A stretch of DNA of 64,000 nt from Martelella sp. NC20. Its GTDB lineage: Bacteria > Pseudomonadota > Alphaproteobacteria > Rhizobiales > Rhizobiaceae. Position 1 is the stretch's first letter, and the number at the start of each line of letters is the position of its first letter. The notes beneath the pieces are model-generated. The model worked only from the letters and a program-made list of their open reading frames with translations. It was not told where the DNA came from and made no database searches. Positions 16,003-32,466 of the stretch are shown here, in pieces. The stretch lies in contig NZ_CP054861.1 of the NCBI RefSeq assembly GCF_013459645.1, positions 1,538,001 through 1,602,000 of the forward strand. The letters run 5' to 3'. A program made the translations under genes and the position numbers.

Positions 16003-17130
16003 TCAGGTGTTGGCATCTTCTTCCGCAGGCAGCAGGCGGGGATAATCGACGTATCCTTTTGCGCCGCGGGTGTAGAAAGTCGACCGGTCGTATTCGGCAA
16101 GCGCGATGCCTGCCTTCAGGCGTTCGACAAGGTCGGGATTCGAGATATAGGGACGCCCGAAGGCGACCATATCGGCGCGGTCCGTGCGGATGGCGTCCTC
16201 GGCGCGCGCGCGGTCGTAATCGGCACAGGCGATGATCGGGCCCGAAAAAGCCGCCCGCGCAATGGCGAGGACGTCCGGCGCTTCGGATTCGCCGGCCACG
16301 CGCCGGCTTCCATCGCCGGAAATCGAAGGCTCGATAATGTGCAGGTAGGCAAGCCCCTGATTTTCGATCAGCCCCAGCACATCGCGGAATGCCCCCATGG
16401 GATCGCTATGGCGGATGCCATTGAAATCGCCAGACGGAGACAGGCGGATGCCGATCCGGGAAAGATCGCCCGCTTTGGCGCGGATGGCGTCCAGGATATC
16501 GGAGAGGAACTTGAGCCTGGCCTGCCGGGAGCCGCCGTAGGCATCCGTGCGCTGATTGGCTTCGTCGGACAGGAACTGTTCGATGATGTAGCCGTTGGCG
16601 CAGTGCAGCTCGACCAGATCAAAGCCCGCTTCCAGCGCGGCAAGTGCGGCCGTGGCGAAATCCTCGATCGTTTGTGCGATGTCCTCGGCGGTCATCGGCC
16701 GGGGCGTTCCGATATCTTCCACCCCGCTCTTGGTGAAAATCTTGAAGGCCGGCGCCACGGCTGACGGCCCGAGCGCATCCAGACCGAGCGGGTTGTTGCG
16801 CTTCGAGAAGACCCGCCCGACATGCCAGAGCTGGGCGCAGATGTGCCCACCCGCCGCATGGACCGCATCGGTTACGGCGCGCCAGGCCGCACGCTGCTCA
16901 GCCGACCAGATGCCCGGCGTGAATGGATAGCCATGGGCCTGCGGGTTGATGCCAATGGCCTCGGTGATGACCAGCCCCGCAGACGCCCGCTGCGCATAAT
17001 ATTCGGCGGCAAGCGGGCTGACATTTCCCTCGAAATCCGCGCGGCTGCGGGTCATCGGCGCCATCGCGATCCGATTTTTCAGTTCGATGCCGCCGATTGT
17101 GACGGGACCGAACAGGTCGCGTTCATTCAT
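16003..17130 (-). CDS. Old yellow enzyme family ene-reductase (FMN)
   Basis: The product is 375 aa. OYE hallmarks are present: LKNRIAMAPMTRSRAD at the start, QLWHVGR, ELHCANGYIIEQFLSDEANQRTD (substrate-binding His and Asn in HCAN, normally HxAN), and FMN-phosphate-binding VAFGRPYISNPDL near the end. Such enzymes reduce activated C=C bonds of enones, enals or nitro-alkenes with NAD(P)H. It overlaps the EthD gene by 8 bp. In this cluster it could saturate an unsaturated ketone or aldehyde early in the pathway. Confidence 0.9.
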   Translation of the reverse strand: MNERDLFGPVTIGGIELKNRIAMAPMTRSRADFEGNVSPLAAEYYAQRASAGLVITEAIGINPQAHGYPFTPGIWSAEQRAAWRAVTDAVHAAGGHICAQLWHVGRVFSKRNNPLGLDALGPSAVAPAFKIFTKSGVEDIGTPRPMTAEDIAQTIEDFATAALAALEAGFDLVELHCANGYIIEQFLSDEANQRTDAYGGSRQARLKFLSDILDAIRAKAGDLSRIGIRLSPSGDFNGIRHSDPMGAFRDVLGLIENQGLAYLHIIEPSISGDGSRRVAGESEAPDVLAIARAAFSGPIIACADYDRARAEDAIRTDRADMVAFGRPYISNPDLVERLKAGIALAEYDRSTFYTRGAKGYVDYPRLLPAEEDANT

Positions 17131-17512
17131 GGGTAACCTCTCCGTCTATGACCACATGTTCAGCCCCGATCCAGGGCATCCACTCCGTCCGTTCGGCAAA
17201 CCGCTTCTCGTCCTCCAGAAGCTGGCGGTAGCATTCGCGCGCGTCCGCGTCGGTGAAGGACCACTCCAGGTCCTCCCGGCTTCGCCAGTAGAGCTCGGCC
17301 ATGCCGAACGGGTATTGCGCCGGCTGGTTCCTGGAGGCGGCCATCACGCCCTCGAGCCTGTGCGGAGTCCGCAGGGTCTGGACGTAGCGCGCCAGACGAA
17401 GCTTTTCGGAAAAGCGGCGCACCATGTCCCCGTGTTCGTCCATCCATCGGGACCGAACAATATCGGGAGCCAGATCCTTTCTTGCGAATATGCTGTATGT
17501 AATCTTGATCAT
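17123..17512 (-). CDS. EthD-domain protein
   Basis: The product is 129 aa from ATG 17512, preceded by GAGGAGG; a longer frame from 17569 has an implausible N-terminus and would run through the putative operator. It is a dimeric alpha/beta-barrel (EthD-like) protein: IKITYSIFARKDL, WMDEHGDMVRRF, and an FTDADARECYRQLLEDEKRF helix. EthD proteins accompany oxygenases or act as small lyases or isomerases; their function is often unknown. It is the first gene of the minus-strand operon, divergent from the acyl-CoA dehydrogenase. Confidence 0.75.
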   Translation of the reverse strand: MIKITYSIFARKDLAPDIVRSRWMDEHGDMVRRFSEKLRLARYVQTLRTPHRLEGVMAASRNQPAQYPFGMAELYWRSREDLEWSFTDADARECYRQLLEDEKRFAERTEWMPWIGAEHVVIDGEVTHE

Positions 17513-17534
17513 CGCTTCCTCCTCGCGTATAAAA

Positions 17535-17554
17535 ACAAACAGCCGTTCTTTTGT
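17535..17554. promoter_or_regulatory. Putative TetR operator, site A
   Basis: ACAAACAGCCGTTCTTTTGT lies midway between the divergent starts at 17512 and 17599. It shares the ACAAAC...CGTT core with sites B-E in the cluster and is the weakest palindrome of the five. Confidence 0.5.
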
Positions 17555-17598
17555 CAAACAGATAATCATGCCTGAGAATAGGCGCCAAGGAGGTCGAA

Positions 17599-18759
17599 AT
17601 GCTGCCCCATCTCATAAACGTCACACCCGAACAGGAAATGTTGCGCGAGGCCCTCGAGGGAACGATCGACCGTGTCTCTCCGGTCTCCAAGGTTCAGCGG
17701 CTCGACAACGCCAAGACCTTCGACGCGGATCTGCACGCTGCCCTTGCCGAACTGGGCATTATGGGCATCGGCATACCGGAAGAAATGGACGGCAGCGGCG
17801 GCGGGGTCGTGGAGCAGGCCATTGTGCTCGAGGTGCTCGGCCGCAAGGCGACCTCGATGGCGGTCTTTATGGTCGTGCATTACATGATCACGCGCATCAT
17901 CAAGGAAAACGGCAGCGACGCGCAGAAGGTGGAGTATCTGGTGCCGCTGCTCAAGGGGCAGTCCAAGGCCTCCTTCTGCCTGACCGAAGCTGGCGGCGGC
18001 ACGGATATCCTGGCCTCCATGAAGACCAAGGCCGTGCGCGACGGCGACGACTGGCTGATTTCCGGCAACAAGATGTGGATCAGCGGCGCCTCGACCAGCG
18101 ACATCATGGTTGTCCTTGCCCGGACCGGGGAGCATCGCAGCCGGGGCCTTTCCATGTTCCTTGTCCCCACCCGCGCCGAAGGCGTCCAGGCCACTGAACT
18201 GAACACGATGGCGATCAACGGCTATGACACAAATGCCCTGTCGCTCGACAATGTCCGCGTGCCGGCCGATGCCATCCTCGGTCAGCTCGACAACGGGTTT
18301 CCGCAGGTGGTCGCGACGCTCAATGGCGAGAGGATTAATGCTGCCGCGGTGGCCGTCGGCATCGGCCGGGGCGCGATCGAGGTCACGCGCGACTATGCCG
18401 CCGACCGTCAGGCCTTCGGGCGACCGATCGGCCAGTTCCAGGCCGTCCAGCACCAGTTGGCGGTGGCGGGCATCGCCATCGAATCCGCCTGGTCCATGGT
18501 GATGGAAGCCGCCCGCCGCGATGAGGCCGGCGAGGCGACGGATGTGCTGAGCTCGATGGCGAAATGGGCGTCGGCCCGTGCCGCCGTGGACTGCACCGAT
18601 ACCGGGATGGAGATTTTTGCGGGCGCCGGCTTCGACATGGACCTGCCCATCCAGCGTTATTATCGCGATGTCCGGCTCTATTCCTTCGCGCCGCTCAACC
18701 AGAATATGTCGCTGAACATGATCGCCGAACGCTGGCTCGGTTTTCCCCGCTCATTCTGA
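17599..18759 (+). CDS. Acyl-CoA dehydrogenase, isovaleryl-type active site
   Basis: The product is 386 aa, with a strong AAGGAGG before the ATG. FAD-dependent alpha,beta-dehydrogenase with the usual signatures CLTEAGGGTD (~127-136) and FGRPIGQFQAVQHQLA (~273-288). The C-terminal block where most family members have the catalytic Glu (IYEGT) reads LYSFAPLNQNM and lacks it. A Glu is present at 244 in LNGERINAAA, matching the position used by isovaleryl-CoA dehydrogenases. A branched or 3-methyl acyl-CoA substrate is therefore likely. It is 16 bp from the biotin carboxylase gene, so dehydrogenation and carboxylation are co-expressed. Confidence 0.9.
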   Translation: MLPHLINVTPEQEMLREALEGTIDRVSPVSKVQRLDNAKTFDADLHAALAELGIMGIGIPEEMDGSGGGVVEQAIVLEVLGRKATSMAVFMVVHYMITRIIKENGSDAQKVEYLVPLLKGQSKASFCLTEAGGGTDILASMKTKAVRDGDDWLISGNKMWISGASTSDIMVVLARTGEHRSRGLSMFLVPTRAEGVQATELNTMAINGYDTNALSLDNVRVPADAILGQLDNGFPQVVATLNGERINAAAVAVGIGRGAIEVTRDYAADRQAFGRPIGQFQAVQHQLAVAGIAIESAWSMVMEAARRDEAGEATDVLSSMAKWASARAAVDCTDTGMEIFAGAGFDMDLPIQRYYRDVRLYSFAPLNQNMSLNMIAERWLGFPRSF

Positions 18760-18775: not shown

Positions 18776-20137
18776 ATGACCAAGAAGATTCTCATCGCGA
18801 ACCGTGGCGAGATCGCCTGCCGCATCATCCGTACCGTACAGAAGATGGGGTATGAGGCCGTCGCGGTCTATTCCGAGGCGGACAAGTCCGCGCTGCACGT
18901 GCGCCTAGCTGACGAAGCGCACGAGATCGGCCCCGCCCGGCCGACCGAAAGCTATCTTGATGCCGGGCGGATACTGGAAGTCGCGACGCGCATCGCCGCC
19001 GCCGCCGTCCATCCCGGTTACGGTTTCCTGTCAGAGAACACCGGCTTCTCAGAGGCCTGTGAGCAGGCCGGCATCGCCTTTATCGGGCCGTCGGCGGAGA
19101 CGATCCGCATGATGGGGGACAAGAACGAGGCGCGCGCCGTGGCCCGCAGTGCCGGCGTGCCGGTTCTCGAGGGAACGCCAAAATTGGACCCCGCGGACGC
19201 GGAGGGGATTCTCGCCGCAGGAGAACAGATCGGCTTTCCGGTGCTGGTCAAGGCTGCCGGGGGAGGGGGCGGGATCGGTCTGCGCCCGGTCGAGGCGGCC
19301 GACAAGCTGGTGGCCGCCGTGCAGACCACCTCGGCGCAGGCCGAGCGGGCGTTTTCGGACCCTTCCGTCTATCTTGAAAAGCTCGTCCGCCGCGCCCGCC
19401 ATATCGAGGTGCAGGTTTTCGGCTTCGGCGGCGAGGGGGCGGTGCACCTCTGGCATCGCGAGTGTTCCGCGCAGCGGCGTTATCAGAAAATCCTGGAGGA
19501 GGCCCGCCCGAGACATCTCGATCCGAAGGCGGCGCAGGGCATGCTGGATTCGGCCGTCGCGCTTGCCAGGGCCACAAACTACGTCGGCGCCGGCACGGTC
19601 GAATATCTCTACGATGACGAGACCGGTGCGTTTTACTTCATGGAGATGAATACCCGCCTGCAAGTTGAACATCCCGTCACCGAGATGATCACCGGTCTCG
19701 ATCTTGTTCAACTGCAGATCAGGCAAGCGCTGGGCGAGGACCTGTCGCAGGAACTGACACAGGGCGCTGTCCGCGACGATGGCCACGCAATCGAAGTGCG
19801 GGTCTGCGCGGAACGCCCCGACAAGCAGTTCATCCCCAGCCCCGGGAAGATCGAGAAGCTGAGCCTCCCGGACCTGCCCGATATCCGCGTCGACACGGGG
19901 TTCGAGGCGGGCGATTCCGTCACTCCGTTCTACGACAGCCTTGTGATGAAGGTGATCGCCTGGGGGGATGATCGCGACCAGGCAATCCACCGGCTCACCG
20001 AAGCGCTCGATGCGACCGAGTTCGAAGGGCTGAGGACGAATATCGCGTTTCTGCGACAGCTCGTGCGGCACCCGGAGTTCCGGGCGGATCGGCTGCACAC
20101 GAAATTCGTCGAAGAGAACATCAAGGATCTGGTCTAG
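18776..20137 (+). CDS. Biotin carboxylase subunit of an acyl-CoA carboxylase
   Basis: The product is 453 aa, the length of a free-standing AccC-type subunit with no fused biotin carrier. It starts KILIANRGEIACRIIRT; the glycine-rich loop FPVLVKAAGGGGGIGL is at ~154-169; the catalytic region includes ECSAQRR (~229-235) and FMEMNTRLQVEHPVTEM (~289-305). It carboxylates biotin using ATP and bicarbonate. The carrier (25046-25261) and carboxyltransferase (25273-26814) are encoded on the other strand 5-7 kb away, so the holoenzyme is assembled from two transcription units. Confidence 0.93.
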   Translation: MTKKILIANRGEIACRIIRTVQKMGYEAVAVYSEADKSALHVRLADEAHEIGPARPTESYLDAGRILEVATRIAAAAVHPGYGFLSENTGFSEACEQAGIAFIGPSAETIRMMGDKNEARAVARSAGVPVLEGTPKLDPADAEGILAAGEQIGFPVLVKAAGGGGGIGLRPVEAADKLVAAVQTTSAQAERAFSDPSVYLEKLVRRARHIEVQVFGFGGEGAVHLWHRECSAQRRYQKILEEARPRHLDPKAAQGMLDSAVALARATNYVGAGTVEYLYDDETGAFYFMEMNTRLQVEHPVTEMITGLDLVQLQIRQALGEDLSQELTQGAVRDDGHAIEVRVCAERPDKQFIPSPGKIEKLSLPDLPDIRVDTGFEAGDSVTPFYDSLVMKVIAWGDDRDQAIHRLTEALDATEFEGLRTNIAFLRQLVRHPEFRADRLHTKFVEENIKDLV

Positions 20138-20214: not shown

Positions 20215-21000
20215 TTACTCTGACCCACCGAACATGCGGGTGCGTTCTTGCGAGAACCGCGCAAGATTGTCGCGCAGCACCTGCGAATGCATCAGGGTGC
20301 GGAACGCGGCCCTTTCATTTTCAAGTGCGGCGTCGATCGGCAGATGGTCGTCGTCAGCCAGTTCCCGACAGGCGCGAATTGTCTGTGGCGGCATGGCGGC
20401 GATGCGGTGGGCGATCTGGGACACCCTCACCGCAAGATCCGCCGCCGGCACGATCTCGGACACCAGACCGATCTCGCAGGCGCGCGCGGCGCTGATCGGC
20501 TCTCCGGTCAGAATCATGTGTTCGGCAACTGCGGGAGGGATCATGCGCCTCAGCCGCGTGACGCCGCCGGCGCCCGCCATCGCGCCGATCCGGACTTCGG
20601 GAAGCGCGAACCGCGCGCGGTCGGACGCGATCCGAATATCCGCGGCCAGCGCAAGTTCCAGCCCGCCGCCCATGGCGTCGCCATTGATCGCGGCAATCAA
20701 TGGTTTGCCCAGCCGTCGGTTGGTCAGGCCGCAGAAATGTTGTGGGTCCTTGCCGGCCTCGATGGCCGACGCCAGATACGGCAGAAAAGTCCCGATATCG
20801 GCCCCCGCACAGAAGGACCGATCTCCCGCGCCGGTCAGAACGATGGCCCGCACCTCGTCGTCGGCTTCCAGTTCTGGCCAGATCGCGGCCAGCGCCTCGT
20901 GCGTCTCCGGATCGATAGCATTCAGCTTGGCCGGCCTGTCGATCGACACCCACGCCACCGGTCCGCGCGTTTCCCTGATGATACCCAAAGCTTCCTCCAT
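20215..21000 (-). CDS. Enoyl-CoA hydratase/isomerase
   Basis: The product is 261 aa, standard for crotonases. Oxyanion-hole regions are LTGAGDRSFCAGADIGTF (~55-72) and INGDAMGGGLELALAADIRIA (~105-125). The first acid position reads ALPEVRIGAMAGAGG with a Glu in PEV, as in active hydratases. It is divergent from the HMG-CoA-lyase-like gene, with putative operator site B between them. It probably hydrates an unsaturated CoA intermediate, although three crotonase genes in the cluster (one dead) make the exact step unclear. Confidence 0.9.
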   Translation of the reverse strand: MEEALGIIRETRGPVAWVSIDRPAKLNAIDPETHEALAAIWPELEADDEVRAIVLTGAGDRSFCAGADIGTFLPYLASAIEAGKDPQHFCGLTNRRLGKPLIAAINGDAMGGGLELALAADIRIASDRARFALPEVRIGAMAGAGGVTRLRRMIPPAVAEHMILTGEPISAARACEIGLVSEIVPAADLAVRVSQIAHRIAAMPPQTIRACRELADDDHLPIDAALENERAAFRTLMHSQVLRDNLARFSQERTRMFGGSE

Positions 21001-21063: not shown

Positions 21064-21083
21064 ACAAACATACGTTAGTTTAC
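21064..21083. promoter_or_regulatory. Putative TetR operator, site B
   Basis: The core AAACATACGTTAGTTT (21066-21081) pairs 12 of 16 positions as a palindrome. It lies between the divergent hydratase (21000) and lyase (21110) genes, 27 bp before the lyase start. Read on the other strand it matches site E closely. Confidence 0.6.
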
Positions 21084-21109
21084 AAATCGAGATGCAAGGG
21101 CATAAAACA

Positions 21110-22054
21110 ATGAGCGACTTTCCGAAGGCCATACATCTGCACGAAGAGGGCCCGCGCGAAGGCATCCAGATCGAGAAGGCGCAGTTGACGGTAGATCAGA
21201 AAGTAGAGCTGATCGACTCTCTTGCCGCAACCGGTCTCAAGCAGATCGACTGCGTGTCATTCGTCAACCCCAAGCGGGTGCCAAGCATGGCCGACGCAGA
21301 CGAGGTTGCCCGCGCCATCCCCAAGCGCGACGGCGTTCGCTATACCGGCCTCTGGCTGAACCAGCAAGGTCTGGAGCGCGCGCTGGAACTGCCGCTCGAC
21401 ATCATGGGATCGCTGCGCGTCACGGCATCGGAAACCTTTTCGATCAAGAACACCAACAAGAACATCGAGCAGACCTTCGACGAGCAACGCAAATGGCTGG
21501 AGACCTACCGCGCTCATGATATCGAGCTTGAGTGGGGTTACATCATGACGGCCTTCGGATGCACCTATGAAGGTCACGTACCGATCAGCCGGGTGATGGA
21601 CATGGCGGCCAGGATCGTGGAGCTGGCGAAAGAGTATTCGCAGCCGCTCAAGGGCATTTATCTTGCGGATACGGTGGGTTTCGCGATGCCGCGCGATATC
21701 GAGGAAAGGGTCGGCGCGCTGCGGGAACGCTACCCCGATCTGCGGGTCGGGCTGCACCTGCACGATACCAGGGGCACCGGTATGCCGAACGTCTATGCCG
21801 CCTTGCGCATGGGCGTTGACCAGTTCGACAGCTCGACCGCCGGACTTGGCGGCTGCCCGTTTGCCGATCACAAGGGCGCGGCGGGCAATGTCTGCACCGA
21901 AGATATTGTCTTCATGTGTGAGGAGATGGGCATCAGCACGGGCGTGGATCTCGACGCGCTGATCGAAACCGCGCGGATGGCCGAGGCCATGTTCGGTCAC
22001 ACCTTGCCCGGAAAAGTCATGCACGCCGGAAGCCTGAGCCGTTTCCGCAGCTGA
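21110..22054 (+). CDS. HMG-CoA lyase family enzyme
   Basis: The product is 314 aa from MSDFPKAIHLHEEGPREG, chosen because AAGGG lies upstream; an ATG at 21092 would add six residues. It has the DRE-TIM metallolyase features EGPREGIQ (normally DGLRDG/EGPRDG), LHLHDTRGTGMPNVYAAL (metal His residues) and FDSSTAGLGGCPFADHKGAAGNVCTED with the catalytic Cys of the GLGGCP loop. HMG-CoA lyase cleaves 3-hydroxy-3-methylglutaryl-CoA to acetyl-CoA and acetoacetate; longer 3-hydroxy-3-alkylglutaryl-CoAs are used in terpene pathways. It ends the dehydrogenase-carboxylase-hydratase-lyase sequence encoded in this cluster. Confidence 0.9.
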   Translation: MSDFPKAIHLHEEGPREGIQIEKAQLTVDQKVELIDSLAATGLKQIDCVSFVNPKRVPSMADADEVARAIPKRDGVRYTGLWLNQQGLERALELPLDIMGSLRVTASETFSIKNTNKNIEQTFDEQRKWLETYRAHDIELEWGYIMTAFGCTYEGHVPISRVMDMAARIVELAKEYSQPLKGIYLADTVGFAMPRDIEERVGALRERYPDLRVGLHLHDTRGTGMPNVYAALRMGVDQFDSSTAGLGGCPFADHKGAAGNVCTEDIVFMCEEMGISTGVDLDALIETARMAEAMFGHTLPGKVMHAGSLSRFRS

Positions 22055-22089: not shown

Positions 22090-22704
22090 CTATGCCGCTT
22101 CCATCAGGTGTTCCTCGGGCACGCGCAGCATGGCGACGGCGAGGTCGATATATTCTTCCGTGATGGAGCTGATGCTTTCCTTGCCCTTCGGGCTGTACCA
22201 GTTGGCAATCTGGGTGAGCATCGCGAACAGGGCGAGCCGGACGGTGCGTCGGTTCGAAAATCTGAAGATGCCGCTTTCCTGACCTTTCTTCAGAATATGA
22301 TCCAGCCGGTCCTCGTATTCGTCACGCATCTTCACGATGTCGGCCCGGTTTTCGTCGGTAAGGCTGCGCAGCTCCATATTGCCGATGAACACTTCGTCCT
22401 TGCGTTTGGTGTGGAACAGAATGTGCACCCGGATAAAGGCGCGGAGCATTTCGAGCGGGTCGTCCAGACCCGCCATAGCCTGTTCCATGTCGTTGTTCAG
22501 ATCGCGGATGATGTCTCCCATCAGCGCATGCAGAAAATCCTGCTTGTTGCTGATGTAGTTGTAGAGAGAGCCGGCCTGAATTCCGACTTCCTTTGCCAGA
22601 TGCCTGAGGCTGACTGCATCATATCCGTGCCGCGCGATCAGGCGTATGCCAGCCTCACGCAGCAGCTTTTCGGTAACCTCGCCCTTGGACCCCAGTGTTC
22701 TCAA
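22090..22704 (-). CDS. TetR-family regulator, likely controlling the catabolic cluster
   Basis: The product is 204 aa. The N-terminal HTH is clear: EKLLREAGIRLIARHGYDAVSLRHLAKEVGIQAGSLYNYISNKQDFLHAL (~12-61). The C-terminal ligand domain is all-helical. It is the last gene of the minus-strand operon that starts at 26814 (after the SDR, 21 bp gap), and operator-like site C lies in front of that operon. Autoregulation plus control of sites A-E is inferred; TetR repressors of acyl-CoA catabolism typically respond to a pathway CoA thioester. Confidence 0.9.
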   Translation of the reverse strand: MRTLGSKGEVTEKLLREAGIRLIARHGYDAVSLRHLAKEVGIQAGSLYNYISNKQDFLHALMGDIIRDLNNDMEQAMAGLDDPLEMLRAFIRVHILFHTKRKDEVFIGNMELRSLTDENRADIVKMRDEYEDRLDHILKKGQESGIFRFSNRRTVRLALFAMLTQIANWYSPKGKESISSITEEYIDLAVAMLRVPEEHLMEAA

Positions 22705-25045: not shown

Positions 25046-25261
25046 TCAGGAATAACTGAAGAGCGACGTGCCCTCGTCGACGGTATCGCCTTCGGCGACC
25101 ATCAGCTTGTCCACCGTGCCGGCATCGTCGGCTTCGATGTTGATCTCCATCTTCATCGACTCAAGGATTGCCACAGTATCGCCAATATCGAAACTGTCGC
25201 CTTCCTTGACCAGGATCTTCCAGACGTTTCCTGCCATGATAGAATCGATCGTTTTTGCCAT
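25046..25261 (-). CDS. Free-standing biotin carboxyl carrier protein, 71 aa
   Basis: The whole protein is one biotinyl domain: MAKTIDSIMAGNVWKILVKE at the start, the biotinylation motif ESMKMEI with Lys37, and a closing DTVDEGTSLFSYS. AAGGAG precedes the start. The Thr/Pro/Ala-rich N-terminal extension of AccB is absent, and the domain is not fused to the biotin carboxylase as in MccA/LiuD. It lies 11 bp after the carboxyltransferase gene. It shuttles carboxybiotin between the subunits encoded at 18776 and 25273. Confidence 0.93.
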   Translation of the reverse strand: MAKTIDSIMAGNVWKILVKEGDSFDIGDTVAILESMKMEINIEADDAGTVDKLMVAEGDTVDEGTSLFSYS

Positions 25262-25272: not shown

Positions 25273-26814
25273 TTAGACGGGATGAACGGCGGAGCGGCGC
25301 GGGATGACGGGCGCTTTCCGGCGGCTGTAGATTGCGAAACGCTTGATGAGATCGTCGCGAAGCGTTTCCGGTGCAAGCACGTCTTCTGCCGCGAAAGTGT
25401 CGGCGGCGGCCTTGTAGACGTCGATGTCCTGCGCAAATTCATCCCGCTTTTGCCGGATGAATTCCGCCCGGTCCTCTTCGGGCAGTTCCATGATCTTGTT
25501 GTAATAGATCGCGTTGACGGCGGCCTCGGGGCCGACCAGGGCCGGCATCGCCGTTGGCAGGGCAAGCATTGCGTCGGGATGCGTGGGCGCCCCGGACATT
25601 GCCAGATACCCGCCGCCATAGGCCTTGCGGACCAGCACGCAGATTCGCGGCACGGTGGATTCGCAGACCGCGGACAACAGCTTTGCGCCATGGCGGATAA
25701 TGCCGCCCTTTTCCACCGAACTGCCGATCATGTAGCCGCTGACGTCCTGAAGGAACAGGAGCGGCACGTTGTAGGCGTTGCAGGTCCAGATGAAACGGGC
25801 CGCCTTGTCCGAAGTGTCCGAAAAGATCACCCCGCCCTTGTGCTTTGAATTGTTGGCCACAATGCCGACCGGTCGCCCGCCGAGCCTTGCAAAGCCCACG
25901 GTCATCTCCTTGGCGTAGAGCGCCTTCACCTCAAAGAAGGTGCCCTCGTCGATAAGCCCGTCGATCAGGTCATGAACATCATAGGGGACATTCTGGTTCT
26001 TCGGCACGACCTCATTGATGCGGGCGGCGGCGGCGGGTTCGGCGGCAACGGCCTCGGCCATCGGGGCCGGCTCTTCCCAGTTGCCGGGAAGGTAGGAGAG
26101 ATATTCCTTGGCGCTTGTGATGCCCTCCGCATCGTCCTTGACCAGGACATCGCCAAGACCGCTGAACATGCAGTGCAGTCTTGCGCCGCCCATCTGCTCG
26201 TCGGTGACATCTTCGGAAATGGTCATCTTGGCCATGCGCGGCGAGCCGAGAAAGGCCGACGCCTGCTTGTCCACCATGATCACCAGATCGCAAAGGCCCG
26301 GAACATAGGCCGCCCCCGCCGGCGACGGCCCGAACAGCACACAGACCTGCGGCACACGGCCCGAGATCTGGACTTGCTTGTACCAGATATTGCCCCAGCC
26401 GTTGCGGCCGAGGAACAGCGACTTCTGCTCGTCGATGCGCGCGCCGGCCGAGTCGACGAGATAGACGATGGGAATCCCGGCCTCGAGCGCGAGGTCCTGC
26501 ATCCGATTGAACTTCAACAGGGCCTGCGGTCCCCAGGTGCCGGCCTTGACGGTCATGTCGTTGGCGATAACGGCGACATCCTGGCCGTTCACCTTGCCAA
26601 TGCATGTGACGATACCGTCGGCAGGCAGGTCGCGTTCGCTTCCCGCAAGAAGTCCGTCCTCGAAGGCGAAACCATCATCGAACAACAGCTTCAGCCTGTC
26701 GCGAACAAGCAGTTTGCCGGACTTGAGGTATTTGTCGCGGGCCTTGCCCTGGCCACCTTCAAGCGCCTTGCGGCGCTTTGCTTCGAGTTCATTCCGCATC
26801 TCTTCGTCTCGCAT
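25273..26814 (-). CDS. Acyl-CoA carboxylase carboxyltransferase (beta) subunit
   Basis: The product is 513 aa with the two-domain carboxyltransferase fold. The N-domain includes VIANDMTVKAGTWGPQALLK, LVDSAGARIDEQ and FGPSPAGAAYVPGLCD; the C-domain includes GIVANNSKHKGGVIFSDTSDKAARFI, FLQDVSGYMIGSSVEKGGIIRHGAKLL and KAYGGGYLAMSG. The FLQDVSGYMIG and EKGGIIRHGAK strings are close to 3-methylcrotonyl-CoA/geranyl-CoA carboxylase beta chains rather than propionyl-CoA carboxylase. Transfer of CO2 to a 3-methyl-2-enoyl-CoA is thus likely. The start at 26814 is not well supported by a ribosome site; 26799 is an alternative. Confidence 0.92.
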   Translation of the reverse strand: MRDEEMRNELEAKRRKALEGGQGKARDKYLKSGKLLVRDRLKLLFDDGFAFEDGLLAGSERDLPADGIVTCIGKVNGQDVAVIANDMTVKAGTWGPQALLKFNRMQDLALEAGIPIVYLVDSAGARIDEQKSLFLGRNGWGNIWYKQVQISGRVPQVCVLFGPSPAGAAYVPGLCDLVIMVDKQASAFLGSPRMAKMTISEDVTDEQMGGARLHCMFSGLGDVLVKDDAEGITSAKEYLSYLPGNWEEPAPMAEAVAAEPAAAARINEVVPKNQNVPYDVHDLIDGLIDEGTFFEVKALYAKEMTVGFARLGGRPVGIVANNSKHKGGVIFSDTSDKAARFIWTCNAYNVPLLFLQDVSGYMIGSSVEKGGIIRHGAKLLSAVCESTVPRICVLVRKAYGGGYLAMSGAPTHPDAMLALPTAMPALVGPEAAVNAIYYNKIMELPEEDRAEFIRQKRDEFAQDIDVYKAAADTFAAEDVLAPETLRDDLIKRFAIYSRRKAPVIPRRSAVHPV

Positions 26815-26852: not shown

Positions 26853-26874
26853 AAACTAACGTACGACTGTTTGT
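26853..26874. promoter_or_regulatory. Putative TetR operator, site C
   Basis: AAACTAACGTACGACTGTTT is centred on GTAC with AAAC/GTTT ends, between the divergent carboxyltransferase and hydratase starts (26814 and 26906). Compared with site B on the opposite strand it is the same string with four extra central bases (CGAC). Confidence 0.55.
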
Positions 26875-26905: not shown

Positions 26906-27703
26906 ATGACATTTCAGACGATCAAGGCGCATGTCGACGATAGGGGGGTCGGCTACCTGACGCTGGCGCGGCCGGAAGTTCGCAATGCCATGAATGGCAC
27001 GATGTACGACGAGGCGCGCGCGGTTGTCCGCGATTATGACGAGGACCCGAAGGTTCGCGTCGTGGTGCTGTCGGGCGAGGGCCAGGCCTTCTGCGCCGGC
27101 GGCGATTTCAAATATCAGCAGAGCCAGTCCGGCCGGCCCCGCGAGGAACGCATTGCCGAGGCTCAGAAGTTGGCCAGCTGGCTGCGGGAACTCGATTTCC
27201 TGAGCAAACCCCTGATCGGCCGAATCAATGGCGCGGCCTATGCCGGTGGTCTTGGTTTGGTCTCCACGTGCGACATCGCGATCGGGCTGAAGAGCGAAAC
27301 CTTTGCGATCACGGAATCGCGCATCGGAATGCTCCCCGGGATGATCGCGCCCTATGTGGTCAAGCGACTGGGCGAAGCGAATGCAAGGCGGCTGTTCCTG
27401 AACGCCAGGCCATTCAGCGGCGAAGAGGCCGTCGGATACGGCATCCTGAGCATGGCGGTCGAGGCGGATGATCTGGACGCCGCAGTCGAGCGCGAGGTCG
27501 ATCTGGCGTTGCGCTGCTCGCCCAAGGCGATTGCGGCGGCAAAGAATCTGATCCGCTATGTCGATCGGCACAATCACGATGAGAATTTCATTTACACCGT
27601 GGATCGGGTCGCGGATATGTGGGACTGGGCCGATGCTGCGGAAGGCATGGCGAGCTTCTTCGAGAAACGCCTGCCGGCATGGGACTGGCGCGCCGACAAA
27701 TGA
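26906..27703 (+). CDS. Enoyl-CoA hydratase (methylglutaconyl-CoA hydratase-like)
   Basis: The product is 265 aa. Crotonase regions: LSGEGQAFCAGGDFKYQQ (~54-71), INGAAYAGGLGLVSTCDIAI (~108-127) and ITESRIGMLPGMIAPYVVKRLG with Glu in the ES-R position (~133-155). The MLPGMIAPYVV block is characteristic of 3-methylglutaconyl-CoA hydratase/AtuE relatives. It would hydrate the carboxylated product before the lyase step. It is divergent from the carboxylase operon across site C and followed by a clear terminator. Confidence 0.9.
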   Translation: MTFQTIKAHVDDRGVGYLTLARPEVRNAMNGTMYDEARAVVRDYDEDPKVRVVVLSGEGQAFCAGGDFKYQQSQSGRPREERIAEAQKLASWLRELDFLSKPLIGRINGAAYAGGLGLVSTCDIAIGLKSETFAITESRIGMLPGMIAPYVVKRLGEANARRLFLNARPFSGEEAVGYGILSMAVEADDLDAAVEREVDLALRCSPKAIAAAKNLIRYVDRHNHDENFIYTVDRVADMWDWADAAEGMASFFEKRLPAWDWRADK

Positions 27704-27751: not shown

Positions 27752-28258
27752 CTACCGGATCAGCTGCGAGATTGGTCGAAACCTGTCATGCTCGGCGGTT
27801 CCAAGCCAGTCGAACAAGATGGATTCCACGGTCTCCAGTTTTGCGCCCATGTCGCGCATCGACCGAAGAGCGGTGCGATAGTCAATGTCTTTCCGGGATC
27901 CGATGGCATCCACGGCGACGACCACGTCGATCCCGCGCGCCCTCAGCCCGCGCACTGTCTGACGCACACAGATATGCGCCTCGCAACCAGCAAGGACCAC
28001 CATCTCGACCGTCTCCGAACCGGGCAGGATCAGTCCGGAGGAGTCGAACGACATTTTCGGGATTGCCGTCTCCCGGTCGATCTGCAGTTCGGCGACCGTT
28101 CCGCCCAGCTTGTCGGGGTTCTGCTCGGTCACCACGATCGGGCGAGCGAATTCCTTGGACCCGGCGACCAGTTTCGCAGCGTTCGCTACCATTGCGTTAG
28201 ACCCTGCCATTGCGGGCACAAGCCTTTCCTGCAGGTCGATGATGGCCGTGATGATCAA
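27752..28258 (-). CDS. Isochorismatase-family cysteine hydrolase
   Basis: The product is 168 aa. The catalytic triad positions of the family are visible: Asp8 (IIDLQERL), Lys68 (AIPKMSF) and Cys97 (GCEAHICVRQT). GCEAHICV with DAIGSR is typical of the YcaC/isochorismatase group, which includes amidases and nicotinamidase relatives. It lies 12 bp after the TRAP permease gene and is the last gene of the dctP-dctQ-dctM operon. Its substrate is unknown; hydrolysis of an amide or ester form of the imported compound is possible. Confidence 0.85.
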   Translation of the reverse strand: MIITAIIDLQERLVPAMAGSNAMVANAAKLVAGSKEFARPIVVTEQNPDKLGGTVAELQIDRETAIPKMSFDSSGLILPGSETVEMVVLAGCEAHICVRQTVRGLRARGIDVVVAVDAIGSRKDIDYRTALRSMRDMGAKLETVESILFDWLGTAEHDRFRPISQLIR

Positions 28259-28270: not shown

Positions 28271-29563
28271 CTATCGGATTGCGAACAGCGCGATTTCCGG
28301 CCAGACCGCCAGGGCGGCGATGAACAGCAACATGCCCGCCACGAAGGGGATGCAGCCCCGGAAGATCGTGCCTAGCGGCACATCCTTGGCCACCGCGTTG
28401 ATGATGTAGACATTGATCCCGATCGGCGGCGTGACCAGCGCGACCTCGGCGACGATCACGATATAGATGCCGAACCAGACCGGATCGATGCCAAGCGACA
28501 TGGCAAAGGGGAACAGGATCGGGACCGTCAGGATAAGCATTCCAAACAGATCGAGAATGCAGCCAAGCACGAGGTAAAGGATCGTCACCGCGATGATGAA
28601 TTCCCAGTAGTTCAGGTCGAGGCTGTTCATGAAACCGAGGATGGTGCCCATCAGCCCGGTCTGCGCGAGAAACCGGGTGAAGAGATATCCGCCCACGATG
28701 ATCAGAAAGAGCATTGCGGTCGTCAGGGCACTGTCGGTCAGTGCGTTGCGGACGGCTGCCGGGCTGAGCTTCCGCGACAGCGCTCCGTAGAGCAGCACGG
28801 CGACCACACCGATGGCCGAAGCTTCGGTCGGCGTGAAGACGCCGAGGTAAAGACCGCCGAGGATGACCGCAAAGATGCCCAGAACCGGCAAGACTTCAAA
28901 AAGCGATATCAGCATGTCGCGCGTGGTGAAGCTTGCCGGGTCGATCCTCCGGCCGACCTCGCTTGGCCGGATGGCTGCGGTGATCAGGACGATCAGCGCG
29001 AAAATGATCGAAATGCAGATGCCGGGCACGATGCCCGCGACAAACAGATCGCCGATCGAGGTTTCGGTCATCAGGCCGTAGAAGACCATGATGATGCTGG
29101 GCGGAATAAGGATGCCGAGCGTGCCAGAGGCCGACATCACGCCGGTTCCCAGCCGCATGCCATAGCCGTAGCGCTTCATCTCCGGAATAACGATGCCGCC
29201 CATGGTCCTTGCGGTGGCAGCACTGGAGCCGCTGACGGCCCCGAAACCCGCGCAAGCGAAGACCGACGCAATGGCAAGGCCTCCCGGCAGCCAGTTCAAC
29301 CAGAGTGACGCACTACGGTACAGGCTGCGCGCGATGCCGGTGTGATGGATGAGGTTGCCCATCAGGATATAGAAGGGCAGAGACAGCAGCAGGAAGCTCG
29401 TGCCTTCGGACCAGTAGACCAGCGTCATTTGGGCCAGGGCGCTATTCAACGTTCCCACAAAATAGAGGCCGGCCAGGCCAATGCTGATCATGGCCAGCCC
29501 GATCGGGATACCCAAGGCGATCAGCGCAAGCAGGACCCCGAAACTGAGGATCACCGGGATCAT
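28271..29563 (-). CDS. dctM: TRAP transporter large permease (DctM)
   Basis: The product is 430 aa, with about 12 hydrophobic segments and typical DctM strings (PIGLAMISIGLAGLYFVGTL; GSSAATARTMGGIVIPEM; PPSIIMVFYGLMTETSIGDLF; TEASAIGVVAVLLYGAL; LGCILDLFGMLILTVPILFPF). It drives sodium- or proton-coupled uptake of an organic acid delivered by the binding protein. It overlaps dctQ by 4 bp. Confidence 0.95.
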   Translation of the reverse strand: MIPVILSFGVLLALIALGIPIGLAMISIGLAGLYFVGTLNSALAQMTLVYWSEGTSFLLLSLPFYILMGNLIHHTGIARSLYRSASLWLNWLPGGLAIASVFACAGFGAVSGSSAATARTMGGIVIPEMKRYGYGMRLGTGVMSASGTLGILIPPSIIMVFYGLMTETSIGDLFVAGIVPGICISIIFALIVLITAAIRPSEVGRRIDPASFTTRDMLISLFEVLPVLGIFAVILGGLYLGVFTPTEASAIGVVAVLLYGALSRKLSPAAVRNALTDSALTTAMLFLIIVGGYLFTRFLAQTGLMGTILGFMNSLDLNYWEFIIAVTILYLVLGCILDLFGMLILTVPILFPFAMSLGIDPVWFGIYIVIVAEVALVTPPIGINVYIINAVAKDVPLGTIFRGCIPFVAGMLLFIAALAVWPEIALFAIR

Positions 29564-30069
29564 TCGATTATCTCCTCGTGCTCGGAACTGTCCGCGTCGG
29601 CCACATGGCCCGTGACGAGACCCCAGAGACCGACCAATCCGGTCATAATGGCGGACACGCCCAGTGCGAAGCGGAACCAGACGTGCGGAAGGTCCAGCTC
29701 AGGCGAGTTTTCGTTAAAGAGAATCATCATCTTGCCGTCTTTCCAGCACTGGAAGGCCAGGGCTGCGCTCACAAGAACCACAAGCAGCCAGACCACGCGC
29801 TCGATGCGCGATTTCGCTTTCTCCGACACGTTGGCCCGGACAAATTCCGCCCGGATGTGAACCCCGGCCAGCCAGGCTGCGGGTGCGGAGAGGGCAAGCG
29901 CGAGGAAGAGCATCAGCGAGGCGAATTCCTGCGACCAGGTCCAGGGAGAATTGAATACGTAGCGGCGTACGACGTCGATCGAGATGATGATGAGGATCGC
30001 GGGGTAGCAGACATAGGCTGCAACGCCGAACATCAGTGAAGAAGCTCTTACGAGCAGATAGCGTACCAT
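29560..30069 (-). CDS. dctQ: TRAP transporter small permease (DctQ)
   Basis: The product is 169 aa with four predicted membrane segments and the DctQ motif DVVRRYVFNSPWTWSQEFASLMLFLALALSAPAAWL (~30-65), followed by the conserved HIRAEFV. It is the second gene of the TRAP operon, between dctP and dctM. Confidence 0.93.
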   Translation of the reverse strand: MVRYLLVRASSLMFGVAAYVCYPAILIIISIDVVRRYVFNSPWTWSQEFASLMLFLALALSAPAAWLAGVHIRAEFVRANVSEKAKSRIERVVWLLVVLVSAALAFQCWKDGKMMILFNENSPELDLPHVWFRFALGVSAIMTGLVGLWGLVTGHVADADSSEHEEIIE

Positions 30070-30135: not shown

Positions 30136-31215
30136 TCAGTGGAAGGCGCCGGTGACCGGCTGCTCCTCGTCCAGGGCGAGGATGTCCTCGTCGCTCATCG
30201 CGCCGTATTTTTCCGTGAGTTGCTCAAGCTGCGCCAGGGTCTCCTCGGCCGTCGGATCTTGCATCGAGGCGTTTTTCTCGATGAAGGCCGCGTATATCGG
30301 GGCCAGGAGTTCATCGATCCTGGCGAGGTCCGCTTCCGAAGGCTCGATGATCTCGACGCCTTCCTCGTTCATGCCGGCCAGCGCATCTTCGGTCAGCTTG
30401 GTGTACATTTTGGCATAGTTCATCGCGGCGTGACGGCCGGCGACGGCGACCACTTCCTGCAGATCTTCCGGCATGGAGTCGTACAGCGCCTTGTTGAACC
30501 CGGTCGGGATGGCGACACGGCCAATGCCGATCCGGTAATTGTACTTCCCGATCTCATCCAGATTGTAGGCCCCGAGATCCGCAGTGCTGAGGAGCACTGC
30601 ATCCAGAACGCCTTGCTGGAAGGCGGAATAGGTGTCGGTGATGGTCATGGTGACTGGCACGGCGCCCAGACGCTCGACGATCTCGGACATGGTGCCGCCG
30701 GCGGCACGGATTTTCATGCCCTTCAGGTCATCGACGCTCGAGATCGGTTTGCGCGACAGGATGTCGTAGGATGGCGTGACCGCATAGAAACCGAGATAGA
30801 CGCCAACCCGCTCGTACTCATCCATGTAGTAGTCCGGGTACATCTCATTGACGACGCGGGTCGCGGCAATGTCGCTGTCCGGCAGGGCGTGCGGCAGTTC
30901 GTTCGCATGGATCAGGTTGAAGCTCGACGCCATATAGATCGGGTAGGCCGCTGTCGCGTCCGTGACGCCGCTGATCAGCGCCTTGAAGCCGTCGCCGACC
31001 GGGTGCAGTACACCGCCCGGATAGGTTTCGGCCTCGATACGACCATTGCTGAGCTCTTCGAGCTCGTCGGCATAGGCCTGAAAGACCTCCTGCCAGGCAG
31101 GAGACGTCTCGGGTTGGTTATAGGAAACCTTTACCTCGAACTCCTGCGCGACGCTCGTTCCAGCGGACAGCGCAAGTGCGAGCGCGGCCCCGACTACGAT
31201 TTTCTTGATAAACAT
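30136..31215 (-). CDS. dctP: TRAP transporter solute-binding protein (DctP)
   Basis: The product is 359 aa with a cleavable signal peptide (MFIKKIVVGAALALALSAGTSVAQ) and AAGGAGGGAGG upstream. DctP-fold markers include GGVLHPVGDGFKALISGVTDA, VDDLKGMKIRAAGGTMSEIVERLGAVPV and SAFQQGVLDAVLLST; the Arg of KIRAAGG normally binds the substrate carboxylate. It is the first gene of the operon dctP-dctQ-dctM-isochorismatase, behind putative operator site D. It presumably captures the acid that the cluster degrades. Confidence 0.95.
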   Translation of the reverse strand: MFIKKIVVGAALALALSAGTSVAQEFEVKVSYNQPETSPAWQEVFQAYADELEELSNGRIEAETYPGGVLHPVGDGFKALISGVTDATAAYPIYMASSFNLIHANELPHALPDSDIAATRVVNEMYPDYYMDEYERVGVYLGFYAVTPSYDILSRKPISSVDDLKGMKIRAAGGTMSEIVERLGAVPVTMTITDTYSAFQQGVLDAVLLSTADLGAYNLDEIGKYNYRIGIGRVAIPTGFNKALYDSMPEDLQEVVAVAGRHAAMNYAKMYTKLTEDALAGMNEEGVEIIEPSEADLARIDELLAPIYAAFIEKNASMQDPTAEETLAQLEQLTEKYGAMSDEDILALDEEQPVTGAFH

Positions 31216-31279
31216 TCTTTCCTCCCTCCTTGCTCCATTTCAATTGAAGCCGATCCTCCAAGGATTGCCGAGCGTCTCA

Positions 31280-31297
31280 TACAAACGACCGTTTGTA
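31280..31297. promoter_or_regulatory. Putative TetR operator, site D
   Basis: TACAAACGACCGTTTGTA is an 18-bp palindrome with one mismatched pair, 65 bp before dctP. It is the cleanest member of the operator family in the cluster. Confidence 0.65.
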
Positions 31298-31349
31298 AAC
31301 ACGGTATTTTTCTTGGACCTGCCGGTTTGGGTTTCGATGAGGAGTTGCA

Positions 31350-31367
31350 AAACCAACGAATGTTTGT
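31350..31367. promoter_or_regulatory. Putative TetR operator, site E
   Basis: AAACCAACGAATGTTTGT matches the reverse strand of site B (AAACTAACGTATGTTTGT) at 16 of 18 positions. It lies about 44 bp before the second dctP. Confidence 0.6.
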
Positions 31368-31410
31368 TTTACTCCGCAACATGCATCACATGAGCTGGGA
31401 GGAGATCATG

Positions 31411-32466
31411 ATGTGTTTGTTGAGGAGTTGTGCCATAGCGCTCATCGCTACCCTAGCAGTTGGAGAGGCGGCGGCGCAGGAGAATTACACCCTGCGTCTG
31501 TCCACATATAAACCCAGCAATTCAAAGGCATGGACGGAAGTCTACGTCCCATATGCGGAGCGTATCGCCGAACTCAGCGATGGCCGCATCACGATCGAGG
31601 CTTTTCCGGACGGCACGCTGCACAGCGCGCCCGACGGTTTCAAGGCGATCGCCGGGGACATTACAGACGTCACGCCCGCTTTCCCCGTCTACATGTCTTC
31701 AAGCTTCGACCTCGTGAAGGCGACCGAGCTTCCACTGGCCTATCCGAATGTCTACGTCGCGACCCGTGTGATCAACGAATTGTACCCCGAATACTTCCGG
31801 GACGAGTTCGAGCGGCTGGGTACCGACCTTGCCTTCACCAGCGTCACCTCGCCCTACGACATCATCACCAAGGTGCCGGTCAATTCGGTTGAAGATCTGA
31901 AGGGCCTGAAAATCCGCTCCGCCGGCGGGCTGATCAGCACCATGCTCGAGCTTCTGGGCGCGGTGCCCGTCAACATCTCGATCGGAGACACCTACGCCGC
32001 TTTCCAGCAGGGCGTCGTCGACGGGGTGATCCTCAGCACCGCGGCCATGGCGGATTATCGTCTGTACGATGTCGCAAAATATAACTACCGGCTCAACGGC
32101 GCGCTGATCTGGATTCCGAATGCGATGAACCCGGACTTCTATGACCCGTTGCCCGACGATCTGAAGGAAGTCCTTGCGGTTGCCGGGCGCGAGGCGGCGA
32201 TGAACAACGCGATCCACTACGACAACCTGACCAAGGATGCGCTCGCCCTGATGGACGAGGCGGGTGTGACCACGGTCGAGCCCTCGCCGGAAGACATGGC
32301 CGAAATCGAAAAGCGCCTCGCGCCGATTTGGGACGATTTCGTCGCCAACAGCGCCAATCCTGAGCGCGCTCAGGAGCTTGTCGATCAAATCCGTGCGCTT
32401 TCGGACAAGTACGCCGCGATGACGCCTGAGGAAATCATCGCTCTCGATGAGGCCGAGCCGGTCTGA
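31411..32466 (+). CDS. dctP: Second, orphan TRAP solute-binding protein
   Basis: The product is 351 aa from the second of two adjacent ATGs, 6 nt after GGGAGGAG; MCLLRSCAIALIATLAVGEAAAQ is a signal peptide. It is clearly paralogous to the divergent DctP (DGTLHSAPDGFKAIAGDITD; VEDLKGLKIRSAGGLIST; YAAFQQGVVDGVILST). No membrane subunits follow it. The TGA at 32464-32466 is the first three bases of the inserted IS21-family element, so the native C-terminus is lost; the paralogue runs five residues further (TGAFH), so little is probably missing. It may share dctQM with the divergent operon. Confidence 0.9.
   Translation: MCLLRSCAIALIATLAVGEAAAQENYTLRLSTYKPSNSKAWTEVYVPYAERIAELSDGRITIEAFPDGTLHSAPDGFKAIAGDITDVTPAFPVYMSSSFDLVKATELPLAYPNVYVATRVINELYPEYFRDEFERLGTDLAFTSVTSPYDIITKVPVNSVEDLKGLKIRSAGGLISTMLELLGAVPVNISIGDTYAAFQQGVVDGVILSTAAMADYRLYDVAKYNYRLNGALIWIPNAMNPDFYDPLPDDLKEVLAVAGREAAMNNAIHYDNLTKDALALMDEAGVTTVEPSPEDMAEIEKRLAPIWDDFVANSANPERAQELVDQIRALSDKYAAMTPEEIIALDEAEPV

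Follow-up and report, generated by a model that had tools for sequence, protein, structure and literature searches.

A putative acyl-CoA carboxylation island of Martelella sp. NC20 with a carboxyltransferase outside the methylcrotonyl- and propionyl-CoA carboxylase groups

Gene content of the island

The subject of this analysis is a region of about twenty genes in the alphaproteobacterium Martelella sp. NC20, which may together encode the uptake, activation and biotin-dependent carboxylation of an organic acid. The region occupies positions 12121-32466 of a stretch of 64,000 nucleotides (contig NZ_CP054861.1, positions 1,538,001 to 1,602,000), which we refer to as the window, and lies between an IS66 transposase and an IS21-type element; we refer to it as the island. 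Window genes were identified by Pfam profile search, and NCBIfam matches were judged against curated cut-offs. The features, in window coordinates, are the following.

8829..10133 (+): IS66-family transposase, left flank of the island (Pfam DDE_Tnp_IS66, 222 bits)
12121..13257 (-): CoA-transferase family III, CaiB/AMACR-like (Pfam CoA_transf_3, 318 bits)
13348..14094 (-): chimeric open reading frame (ORF), short-chain dehydrogenase/reductase (SDR) N-terminus and DctP C-terminus (Pfam adh_short 16-95, DctP 94-201)
14091..14960 (-): FAH-family hydrolase (Pfam FAA_hydrolase, 219.9 bits)
14967..15542 (-): BioY biotin transporter (Pfam BioY, 113 bits)
15563..15985 (-): single-domain cupin (Pfam Cupin_2)
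16003..17130 (-): ene-reductase of the old yellow enzyme (OYE) type, NemA-like (Pfam Oxidored_FMN, 272 bits; NCBIfam PRK10605, 327 bits, cut-off 403)
17123..17569 (-): EthD-domain protein (Pfam EthD, 31.9 bits)
17535..17550: operator-like site, 2 mismatches, divergent promoter of EthD and the acyl-CoA dehydrogenase, intergenic only if EthD starts at 17512
17599..18759 (+): acyl-CoA dehydrogenase (AcDH), Glu244 and Pro365 (Pfam)
18776..20137 (+): biotin carboxylase (BC) subunit, no carrier domain (Pfam Biotin_carb_N, CPSase_L_D2, Biotin_carb_C)
20215..21000 (-): enoyl-CoA hydratase/isomerase A (ECH-A; Pfam ECH_1, 174.6 bits)
21064..21079: operator-like site, 1 mismatch, ECH-A/lyase divergent promoter
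21092..22054 (+): 3-hydroxy-3-methylglutaryl-CoA (HMG-CoA)-lyase-like enzyme, GPREG motif, longer GGCP..GN loop (NCBIfam PRK05692)
22090..22704 (-): TetR regulator (Pfam TetR_N, TetR_C_24)
22726..23490 (-): SDR dehydrogenase (Pfam adh_short_C2, 206 bits)
23483..25012 (-): AMP-forming acyl-CoA ligase (Pfam AMP-binding, 267 bits; nearest solved structures 8weu/8wev)
25046..25261 (-): stand-alone biotin carrier (BCCP), 71 residues, ESMKM motif (Pfam Biotin_lipoyl, 65.7 bits)
25273..26814 (-): carboxyltransferase (CT), assigned to a third, yngE-like lineage from tree and motifs (Pfam Carboxyl_trans, 458 bits)
26859..26874: operator-like site, 2 mismatches, CT/ECH-B divergent promoter
26906..27703 (+): enoyl-CoA hydratase B (ECH-B; Pfam ECH_1)
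27752..28258 (-): isochorismatase-like protein (Pfam, 82.7 bits)
28271..29563 (-): TRAP large permease DctM (Pfam DctM, 299.5 bits)
29560..30069 (-): TRAP small permease DctQ (Pfam DctQ, 74.4 bits)
30136..31215 (-): TRAP solute-binding protein DctP1 (ORF reading; closest among solved structures are TRAP DctP-type solute-binding proteins)
31281..31296: operator-like site, perfect palindrome, DctP1/DctP2 divergent promoter
31352..31367: second operator-like site of the DctP1/DctP2 divergent promoter, 1 mismatch
31408..32466 (+): TRAP solute-binding protein DctP2 (Pfam DctP, 141.7 bits)
32586..34837 (+): IS21-type element (Mu-type transposase and IstB), right flank (Pfam)

An initial annotation, made from the sequence alone, had placed a complete carboxylation pathway at 17123-32466, and Pfam bore out its gene families: DctM, DctQ, DctP, the AMP-forming ligase, AcDH, BC, CT, both hydratases, the HMG-CoA-lyase-like enzyme, the isochorismatase and the EthD protein were all confirmed. 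The cupin, ene-reductase, FAH-family hydrolase and AMACR-like CoA-transferase also exist, but all four lie to the left of that interval (at 15563, 16003, 14091 and 12121, respectively), and the BCCP, TetR, SDR, BioY and second DctP genes had been overlooked. An ORF of 793 residues at 30085-32466 had been read as DctP, which holds only from about 31408, the 5′ part being antisense to DctP1. The two DctP proteins are 50% identical, and we rejected a ligand assignment from their nearest solved structures as unsafe. The best NCBIfam match of the CoA-transferase, succinyl-CoA:mesaconate CoA-transferase, reached 173 bits against a cut-off of 700. The chimeric ORF is 40% identical to DctP1 over 188 residues and overlaps the FAH stop by 4 bases; it is a probable deletion fusion that preserves the remnant of a third DctP. 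Judged from the alignment of orthologs, whose starts it matches, the true EthD start is probably 17512.

The carboxylase, lyase and dehydrogenase

As the BC (453 residues) has no carrier domain and the BCCP is encoded separately, the carboxylase would consist of three separate chains, an arrangement other than the fused BC-BCCP of methylcrotonyl-CoA carboxylase (MCC) and geranyl-CoA carboxylase (GCC). The CT had at first been taken for a methylcrotonyl/geranyl type, and a 29-row phylogenetic tree did not bear this out. The window CT fell outside the MCC clade (3u9r, 4q0g, 8j4z and a plasmid-borne Roseibium homolog, L110; 100/100), was excluded from the PccB/MmdA fork (100/100), and joined the Bacillus yngE-type proteins in a third group (21 rows, 100/98), with a nine-row subclade containing it also supported (100/99). 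By this placement the CT is a third, yngE-like lineage outside the MCC and propionyl-CoA carboxylase (PCC) groups; the grouping with PccB that was to have spoken against the pathway proposal was not observed. An identity as MmdA (TIGR01117) was rejected at 410 versus 999 bits.

The sequence signatures of this CT are mixed: a short N-terminus, an RKAYGG motif and a five-residue insertion in the C-domain are of PCC type, whereas the pocket loop and an LLFLQD-x-SG-x-M-x-G motif are of MCC type. The GK(L/I) motif is preceded by 32 residues in the window CT, by 30 in the host PccB and by 51 in the MccB-type protein of L110, and the window CT lacks the extended N-terminal helix that passages of PMC4673880 use to recognize MCC-type beta subunits. 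Those passages describe the pocket as formed by Phe after a three-residue insertion in MCC and by Gly without the insertion in GCC; the window CT has the MCC-like insertion and no PCC-type gap in the loop, but places Trp140 in the Phe/Gly column, a column that we set by alignment to these residues and not by the paper's numbering. In the same column Bacillus has Ala, MCC Phe and PCC Tyr, and among the 120 CT relatives listed (of 8000 scored) Trp stands there in 117 and Gly in one, the motif being absent from the other two.

The cleavage enzyme, described earlier as HMG-CoA-lyase-like, stands as a homolog of that family, with 279.2 bits to PRK05692 (cut-off 246) and 1ydo as its nearest solved structure, but departs from it at two points. 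It carries GPREG in place of GPRDG, the Asp of which we take to be a metal ligand, and its GGCP..GN loop has 14 residues versus 12 in the Bacillus rows. GPREG and a lengthened loop are both found in three orthologs, namely those of G1378 (a genome of the same family), the Pacificitalea manganoxidans conjugative plasmid pDY25-B and a further relative, G540, as well as in the Roseibium lyase, and neither occurs in the Bacillus and actinobacterial lyases compared. PREG is present in 119 of the 120 relatives listed (of 7983) and PREA in the remaining one, and the loop is 14 residues long in all 120. Judged by its alignments, the enzyme is an HMG-CoA-lyase homolog with two altered active-site features. 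HMG-CoA lyase (HMGL) homologs in which the motif reads VRDGFQ and the GGQP loop is very long were also seen beside CT relatives in Desulfotruncus, Desulfofundulus and Desulfallas (L035, L043 and L045).

The AcDH, labelled isovaleryl-type at the outset, keeps that label in one respect only. Glu244 (in an ER pair) occupies the position taken as that of isovaleryl-CoA dehydrogenase (IVD) and long-chain acyl-CoA dehydrogenase (LCAD), and Pro365 stands where medium-chain (MCAD-type) enzymes have Glu; all 120 relatives listed (of 2528) share this pattern, and the Bacillus rows show that of MCAD. The nearest solved sequence is nevertheless short/branched-chain acyl-CoA dehydrogenase (SBCAD; 2jif, 194.8 bits), ahead of IVD (4o5m, 156.5; 1ivh, 152.5). 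We regard the differences at the predicted active sites of the CT, lyase and AcDH as real evidence of divergence from known carboxylation logic.

Conservation, spread and a candidate operator

We used 20 window proteins as queries against the corresponding stretches of relatives. In the 38-kb stretch of G1378, 16 of the 20 were matched at 39-81% identity, with no match for CaiB, AcDH, BC or the isochorismatase; on pDY25-B, 18 were matched, the FAH at only 33%, with the isochorismatase unmatched and CaiB present as fragments that were not counted. This recurrence is in keeping with the coherent, uncharacterized carboxylation route with extra enzymes that had been proposed, and suggests that the pathway genes belong together as one set. 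Among the extra genes ascribed to the route, OYE, EthD, cupin, TRAP and BioY recur in both relatives and the FAH does so in G1378 (61%), but the isochorismatase-like protein has no counterpart in either stretch and is therefore probably a passenger. A DUF2889 protein, not found among the annotated window genes, adjoins hydratase A in G1378 (L104, 5719-6285) and Pacificitalea (L109, 5121-5696).

Parts of the set occur elsewhere. G540 has the carboxylation core (AcDH, BC, HMGL, CT, BCCP, ECH, ligase, SDR and TetR); G067 has CT, AcDH, ligase and SDR in common with the window; a metagenome-assembled genome of Actinomycetes (L006) encodes relatives of the CT (59%), cupin (57%), FAH (52%) and AcDH (49%), among others; and Rhodococcus ruber shares CT, AcDH, BC, ligase and TetR, its cupin (23%) and EthD (28%) not being counted as orthologs. 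The R. ruber cluster also contains SDRs of the mycofactocin type along with an aldehyde dehydrogenase, as might be expected if the precursor were an alcohol. As the large ligases of G1378 and G540 score below the listed curated cut-offs, we do not claim acetoacetate as a product. About 8 kb from the CT relative of G067 lies a tricarballylate dehydrogenase, TcuA (L101, 27-1511; 607 bits, cut-off 369).

The distribution of the CT is patchy. A threshold of E <= 1e-170 gave a single match among the 393 other genomes sampled from the family (G1378, 79%), with no match in the seven further members of the genus included there, and a single match among the 397 others sampled from the phylum. At E <= 1e-150 there was one match among 288 others sampled from the class and one among 396 others sampled from the order. 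Protein searches named relatives in Chelatococcus asaccharovorans, Mesorhizobium sp. 1B3, Amorphus, Bradyrhizobium and Pseudomonas, and the listed relatives of CT, AcDH and HMGL had named organisms in common, among them Chelatococcus asaccharovorans, Amorphus sp. 3PC139-8 and Bradyrhizobium sp. 1. The only plasmid-encoded CT above 60% identity was that of pDY25-B (78%), a Rhodococcus ruber megaplasmid following at 58.7%; viral contigs yielded no relative. Given the patchy spread, carriage on plasmids and flanking IS elements, the island appears to have been acquired horizontally. The IS21-type element is 99.7% identical to a copy on a plasmid of Martelella sp. NC18, and the window AcDH shares 97% identity with a dehydrogenase of Martelella sp. 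FLE1502. Further out, a VgrG/baseplate-hub-like protein (Phage_GPD, Gp5 trimer; 3155-5224, -) and a SUKH-domain protein (6313-7626, +) lie to the left of the island, and an AmiR/ANTAR regulator, an alpha/beta hydrolase and a family-5 solute-binding protein (35219-38461), probably another system, lie to the right of the IS21 element.

The divergent promoters of the island share a palindrome, ACAAACnnnnGTTTGT, which is also present in relatives with a similar TetR gene and takes the perfect form ACAAACGACCGTTTGT between DctP1 and DctP2. Allowing two mismatches, the window holds five sites against 0.83 expected, a number reached in none of 100 shuffles, and all five fall in four divergent gene junctions of the island (that at 17535 only if EthD starts at 17512). 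Relatives were scanned in the same way. In G1378 there are five sites, at CT/ECH and lyase/ECH, ahead of DctP and of EthD, and within the TetR gene; pDY25-B has sites at lyase/ECH, AcDH/EthD and CT/ECH, one ahead of a second TRAP operon and an unrelated one within cueR; and G540 carries perfect copies at three places, namely ligase/SDR, AcDH/transporter and ahead of the ECH-CT genes. L006 has one weak copy before the ligase, of the two Bacillus controls L097 has a single weak copy and L007 none, and the scan of L110 returned none. With up to one mismatch there were three matches in 79 genome-contig loci (L007-L085) plus ten plasmid loci (1.60 Mb), and eight in eight cluster loci. The TetR protein of the island presumably binds the palindrome, and palindrome and TetR gene might together serve as a reporter for tracing the natural substrate.

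On pDY25-B (L109, 20229-29999) a site with two mismatches precedes a second TRAP set, a thiolase, an OB-fold protein, an acyl-CoA ligase, MaoC, AcDH and CaiB, which are possible extra members of the regulon. The four sites of R. ruber (L096; 8782, 12261, 18531 and 19568) lie before an AcDH/acetate symporter, BC, a mycofactocin-type SDR and TetR, and the regulon may therefore cross phyla.

Substrate, rival readings and known systems

The initial annotation had guessed at a ring-containing substrate, for which the neighborhoods of cupin and FAH genes provide indirect support, short of proof. The best 15 of 154 plasmid cupin records were 71-84% identical to the window cupin, most others being below 60%; eight of these 15 loci were opened besides pDY25-B, seven of them annotated (L140 is unannotated). 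In six of the seven a FAH-family gene adjoins the cupin, together with RidA and a fusion of flavin hydroxylase and OYE named salicylyl-CoA 5-hydroxylase/oxidoreductase; we read L139 in this way, its genes being named ureidoglycolate lyase, enamine deaminase and, at 2.3 kb, "NADPH dehydrogenase". Such clusters are presumably 2-aminobenzoyl-CoA routes, a view with which the additional kynureninase in one of the six agrees. The seventh locus (Alloyangia, L137) has its cupin in a TRAP cluster with a FAH and SDRs. In the FAH tree the carboxylase-cluster proteins of the window, G1378 and L006 group (85/99). A small cupin tree had one well-supported inner branch of eight and was otherwise weakly supported, and therefore shows only that cupins do not separate by cluster type. 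The cupin step may thus be shared across cluster types and the FAH step substrate-specific. The predicted structure of the window cupin had a mean predicted local distance difference test (pLDDT) of 47.6.

Our preferred explanation for these observations, which we put slightly on the probable side, is that a horizontally acquired and probably TetR-controlled regulon breaks down a compact, beta-branched and likely ring-derived acid by gamma-carboxylation and retro-Claisen cleavage. The TRAP proteins would import a small carboxylic acid; OYE, SDR, EthD, cupin and FAH, to judge from their neighborhoods, would process its ring or beta-dicarbonyl part; the ligase would form the CoA ester and the AcDH would desaturate a beta-branched acyl-CoA, both steps being proposed from enzyme family; and BC, BCCP and CT would carboxylate the gamma carbon of a beta-methyl enoyl-CoA. 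Simple HMG-CoA from leucine is probably not the substrate. A broader proposal, which we offer tentatively and regard as less than likely, is that the CT belongs to a third acyl-CoA carboxylase lineage that combines PCC-type architecture with MCC-type gamma-carboxylation of a ring-derived, beta-branched acid, that the lyase (Glu for Asp, longer loop) represents a new class of HMG-CoA-lyase homologs, and that the whole route, including ring processing by cupin and FAH, spreads as one TetR regulon whose carboxylation core is common to several phyla.

Several observations weigh against the gamma-carboxylation regulon. Across the host genome the palindrome is not in excess (seven sites versus eight for a reversed-pattern control), although three of the seven, including the sole perfect one, sit in the island; G067 has no site; the 29-kb stretch of G540 has no cupin, FAH, BioY or TRAP match; and the Pacificitalea FAH is a distant outlier, outside the carboxylase-cluster group. 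Neither R. ruber (31.5 kb examined) nor L006 (15.9 kb examined) has a matching lyase, and the lyase step is therefore not universal. The AlphaFold model of the CT, of modest pLDDT (72.5) and from a shallow alignment (19 close sequences), matches PCC-, transcarboxylase- and acetyl-CoA carboxylase (ACC)-type chains at TM-scores of 0.73-0.81 among the 50 rows listed, and the five MCC-type rows among them (9tqc_E, 9tqg_A, 9yx0_G, 4q0g_A and 4q0g_B) at only 0.38-0.40, with a root-mean-square deviation near 24. No MCC-type chain appears among the rows shown by VIA-align, an absence to which we attach no weight. This fit speaks against a simple MCC reading and keeps alpha-carboxylation as a rival: under the two-lineage rule set out in passages of PMC4673880, by which PCC architecture carboxylates the alpha and MCC architecture the gamma position, alpha-carboxylation of a saturated acid would be predicted. 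The CT family offers a direct test of that proposed split.

Such a PCC-like enzyme would convert a saturated acyl-CoA to an alkylmalonyl-CoA, the lyase acting on another intermediate. The sequence and structure lists headed by PCC-, transcarboxylase- and ACC-type chains, the short N-terminus, the RKAYGG motif and the C-domain insertion all favor it, but the position of the CT outside PccB/MmdA, its MCC-like loop and LLFLQD motif, and the presence in the same cluster of an HMGL-type lyase and a further crotonase make it improbable in our judgment. Somewhat less improbable, though still unlikely, is that the island is the host's own leucine/isovalerate (Liu-type) route, with a yng-type MCC and a true HMG-CoA lyase, and with the extra genes serving neighboring chemistry. 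It had been suggested that the pathway proposal would fail if the host had no second Liu locus and grew on leucine through this one only, and the first part is what we found. In the host genome (6.1 Mb, three contigs) an MccB-type query returned only the window CT (37%) and PccB (36%), no MccA-type gene was found, and there was no second lyase-sized HMGL, the four other matches to the family lying in frames of 599-1167 residues; leucine or isovalerate therefore remains a rival substrate. Of five host matches to the carboxyl-transferase family, two are PccB and the window CT and the rest lie in three frames of 312-336 residues, other BC C-domain matches lay in frames of 453, 734 (adjoining PccB) and 1167 residues, and a gene with the E1-alpha N-domain of branched-chain keto acid dehydrogenase is present. 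The same AcDH-ligase-BC-BCCP-HMGL-ECH-CT set occurs in a plasmid cluster of Bacillus amyloliquefaciens, and ECH-B, which scores 322 bits with PRK07468 (cut-off 350), has gamma-carboxygeranoyl-CoA hydratase as its second-best NCBIfam match (193 bits, cut-off 426). Against a Liu-type route stand the catalytic Glu of the AcDH, unlike that of the Bacillus type, the GPREG motif and longer loop of the lyase, the gate Trp versus Ala in the CT, the conservation of the extra genes alongside with the same operator-like sites, and the presence of the CT in so few relatives, 3 of 12 other genus members having an MccB-type gene (51-53%) instead.

It is also conceivable, if very improbable, that a ring module (TRAP, cupin, FAH and OYE) and a carboxylation module are separate pathways brought side by side by chance transposition. 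G540 has the core without the ring module, Alloyangia L137 has TRAP, cupin and FAH but, over the 20 kb inspected, no gene for a carboxylase, and IS elements lie on both flanks; yet the same combination occurs in the window, G1378 and Pacificitalea, operator-like sites precede the EthD/AcDH, lyase/ECH, CT/ECH and TRAP promoters alike, and the grouping of the FAHs of the window, G1378 and L006 holds across phyla.

No description of this gene set was found in the titles or abstract openings returned by searches of the open-access literature, and its relatives are plentiful in databases under names such as acetyl-CoA carboxylase or HMG-CoA lyase, which may mislead. Limonene/perillyl-CoA routes were rejected as models, because passages on the Castellaniella route state that atuC and atuF homologs are absent from its genome (PMC4109377) and those on a methanogenic enrichment propose an enzyme of the HMG-CoA-synthase superfamily instead (PMC12583861).

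Among known systems, the Bacillus yng operon type (L097 plasmid region) likewise has AcDH, AMP-forming ligase, BC, a separate BCCP of the 70-residue class, HMGL, ECH and CT in one cluster, hence a three-piece carboxylase, with a CT in the same broad clade and biotin genes nearby (bioBFAD there, BioY in the window). Its CT is about 51% identical, belongs to another subclade and has Ala at the gate, its AcDH has the MCAD-type Glu, its lyase has GPRDG and a short loop, and, unlike the window, the region has no annotated TRAP, OYE, EthD, cupin, FAH or BioY. The operon presumably has a role in leucine breakdown. Passages of PMC517825, the source of the names yngE-yngJ, and of PMC3097244 treat the yng genes as sporulation genes and name no substrate. 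The Liu (methylcrotonyl-CoA) and Atu (geranyl-CoA) pathways have in common with the island a ligase/dehydrogenase, biotin-dependent carboxylation, a hydratase and an HMGL-type lyase, probably acting in that order, but use alpha subunits that fuse BC and BCCP, as passages of PMC3199775 describe; the window CT lies outside their MCC clade, and its lyase is divergent and accompanied by extra genes. PCC and MmdA resemble the window CT in length, short N-terminus, RKAYGG motif and predicted domain arrangement, but form a separate clade without its MCC-like loop, and the host has a PccB of its own.

The salicylyl-CoA 5-hydroxylase/oxidoreductase clusters, such as those of plasmids pAL1 and pRLCBG43, to which we ascribe a 2-aminobenzoyl-CoA role, share with the island a cupin (71-84%), a FAH-family neighbor and an OYE domain; no flavin hydroxylase or RidA was found in the island, and their FAHs fall in a separate group. 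The Roseibium aggregatum plasmid cluster L110 also keeps AcDH, ligase, CT, BC, HMGL and SDR together, with a GPREG lyase, but its CT is of MccB/GccB type and its BC gene, of about 2 kb, is long enough for a fused carrier; by this combination of an MccB-type CT and a GPREG-type lyase it is a different carboxylation route from that of the window. Set beside these systems, the island reads as a variation on known carboxylation logic, with real evidence, at the level of sequence, both of its unity and of its divergence.

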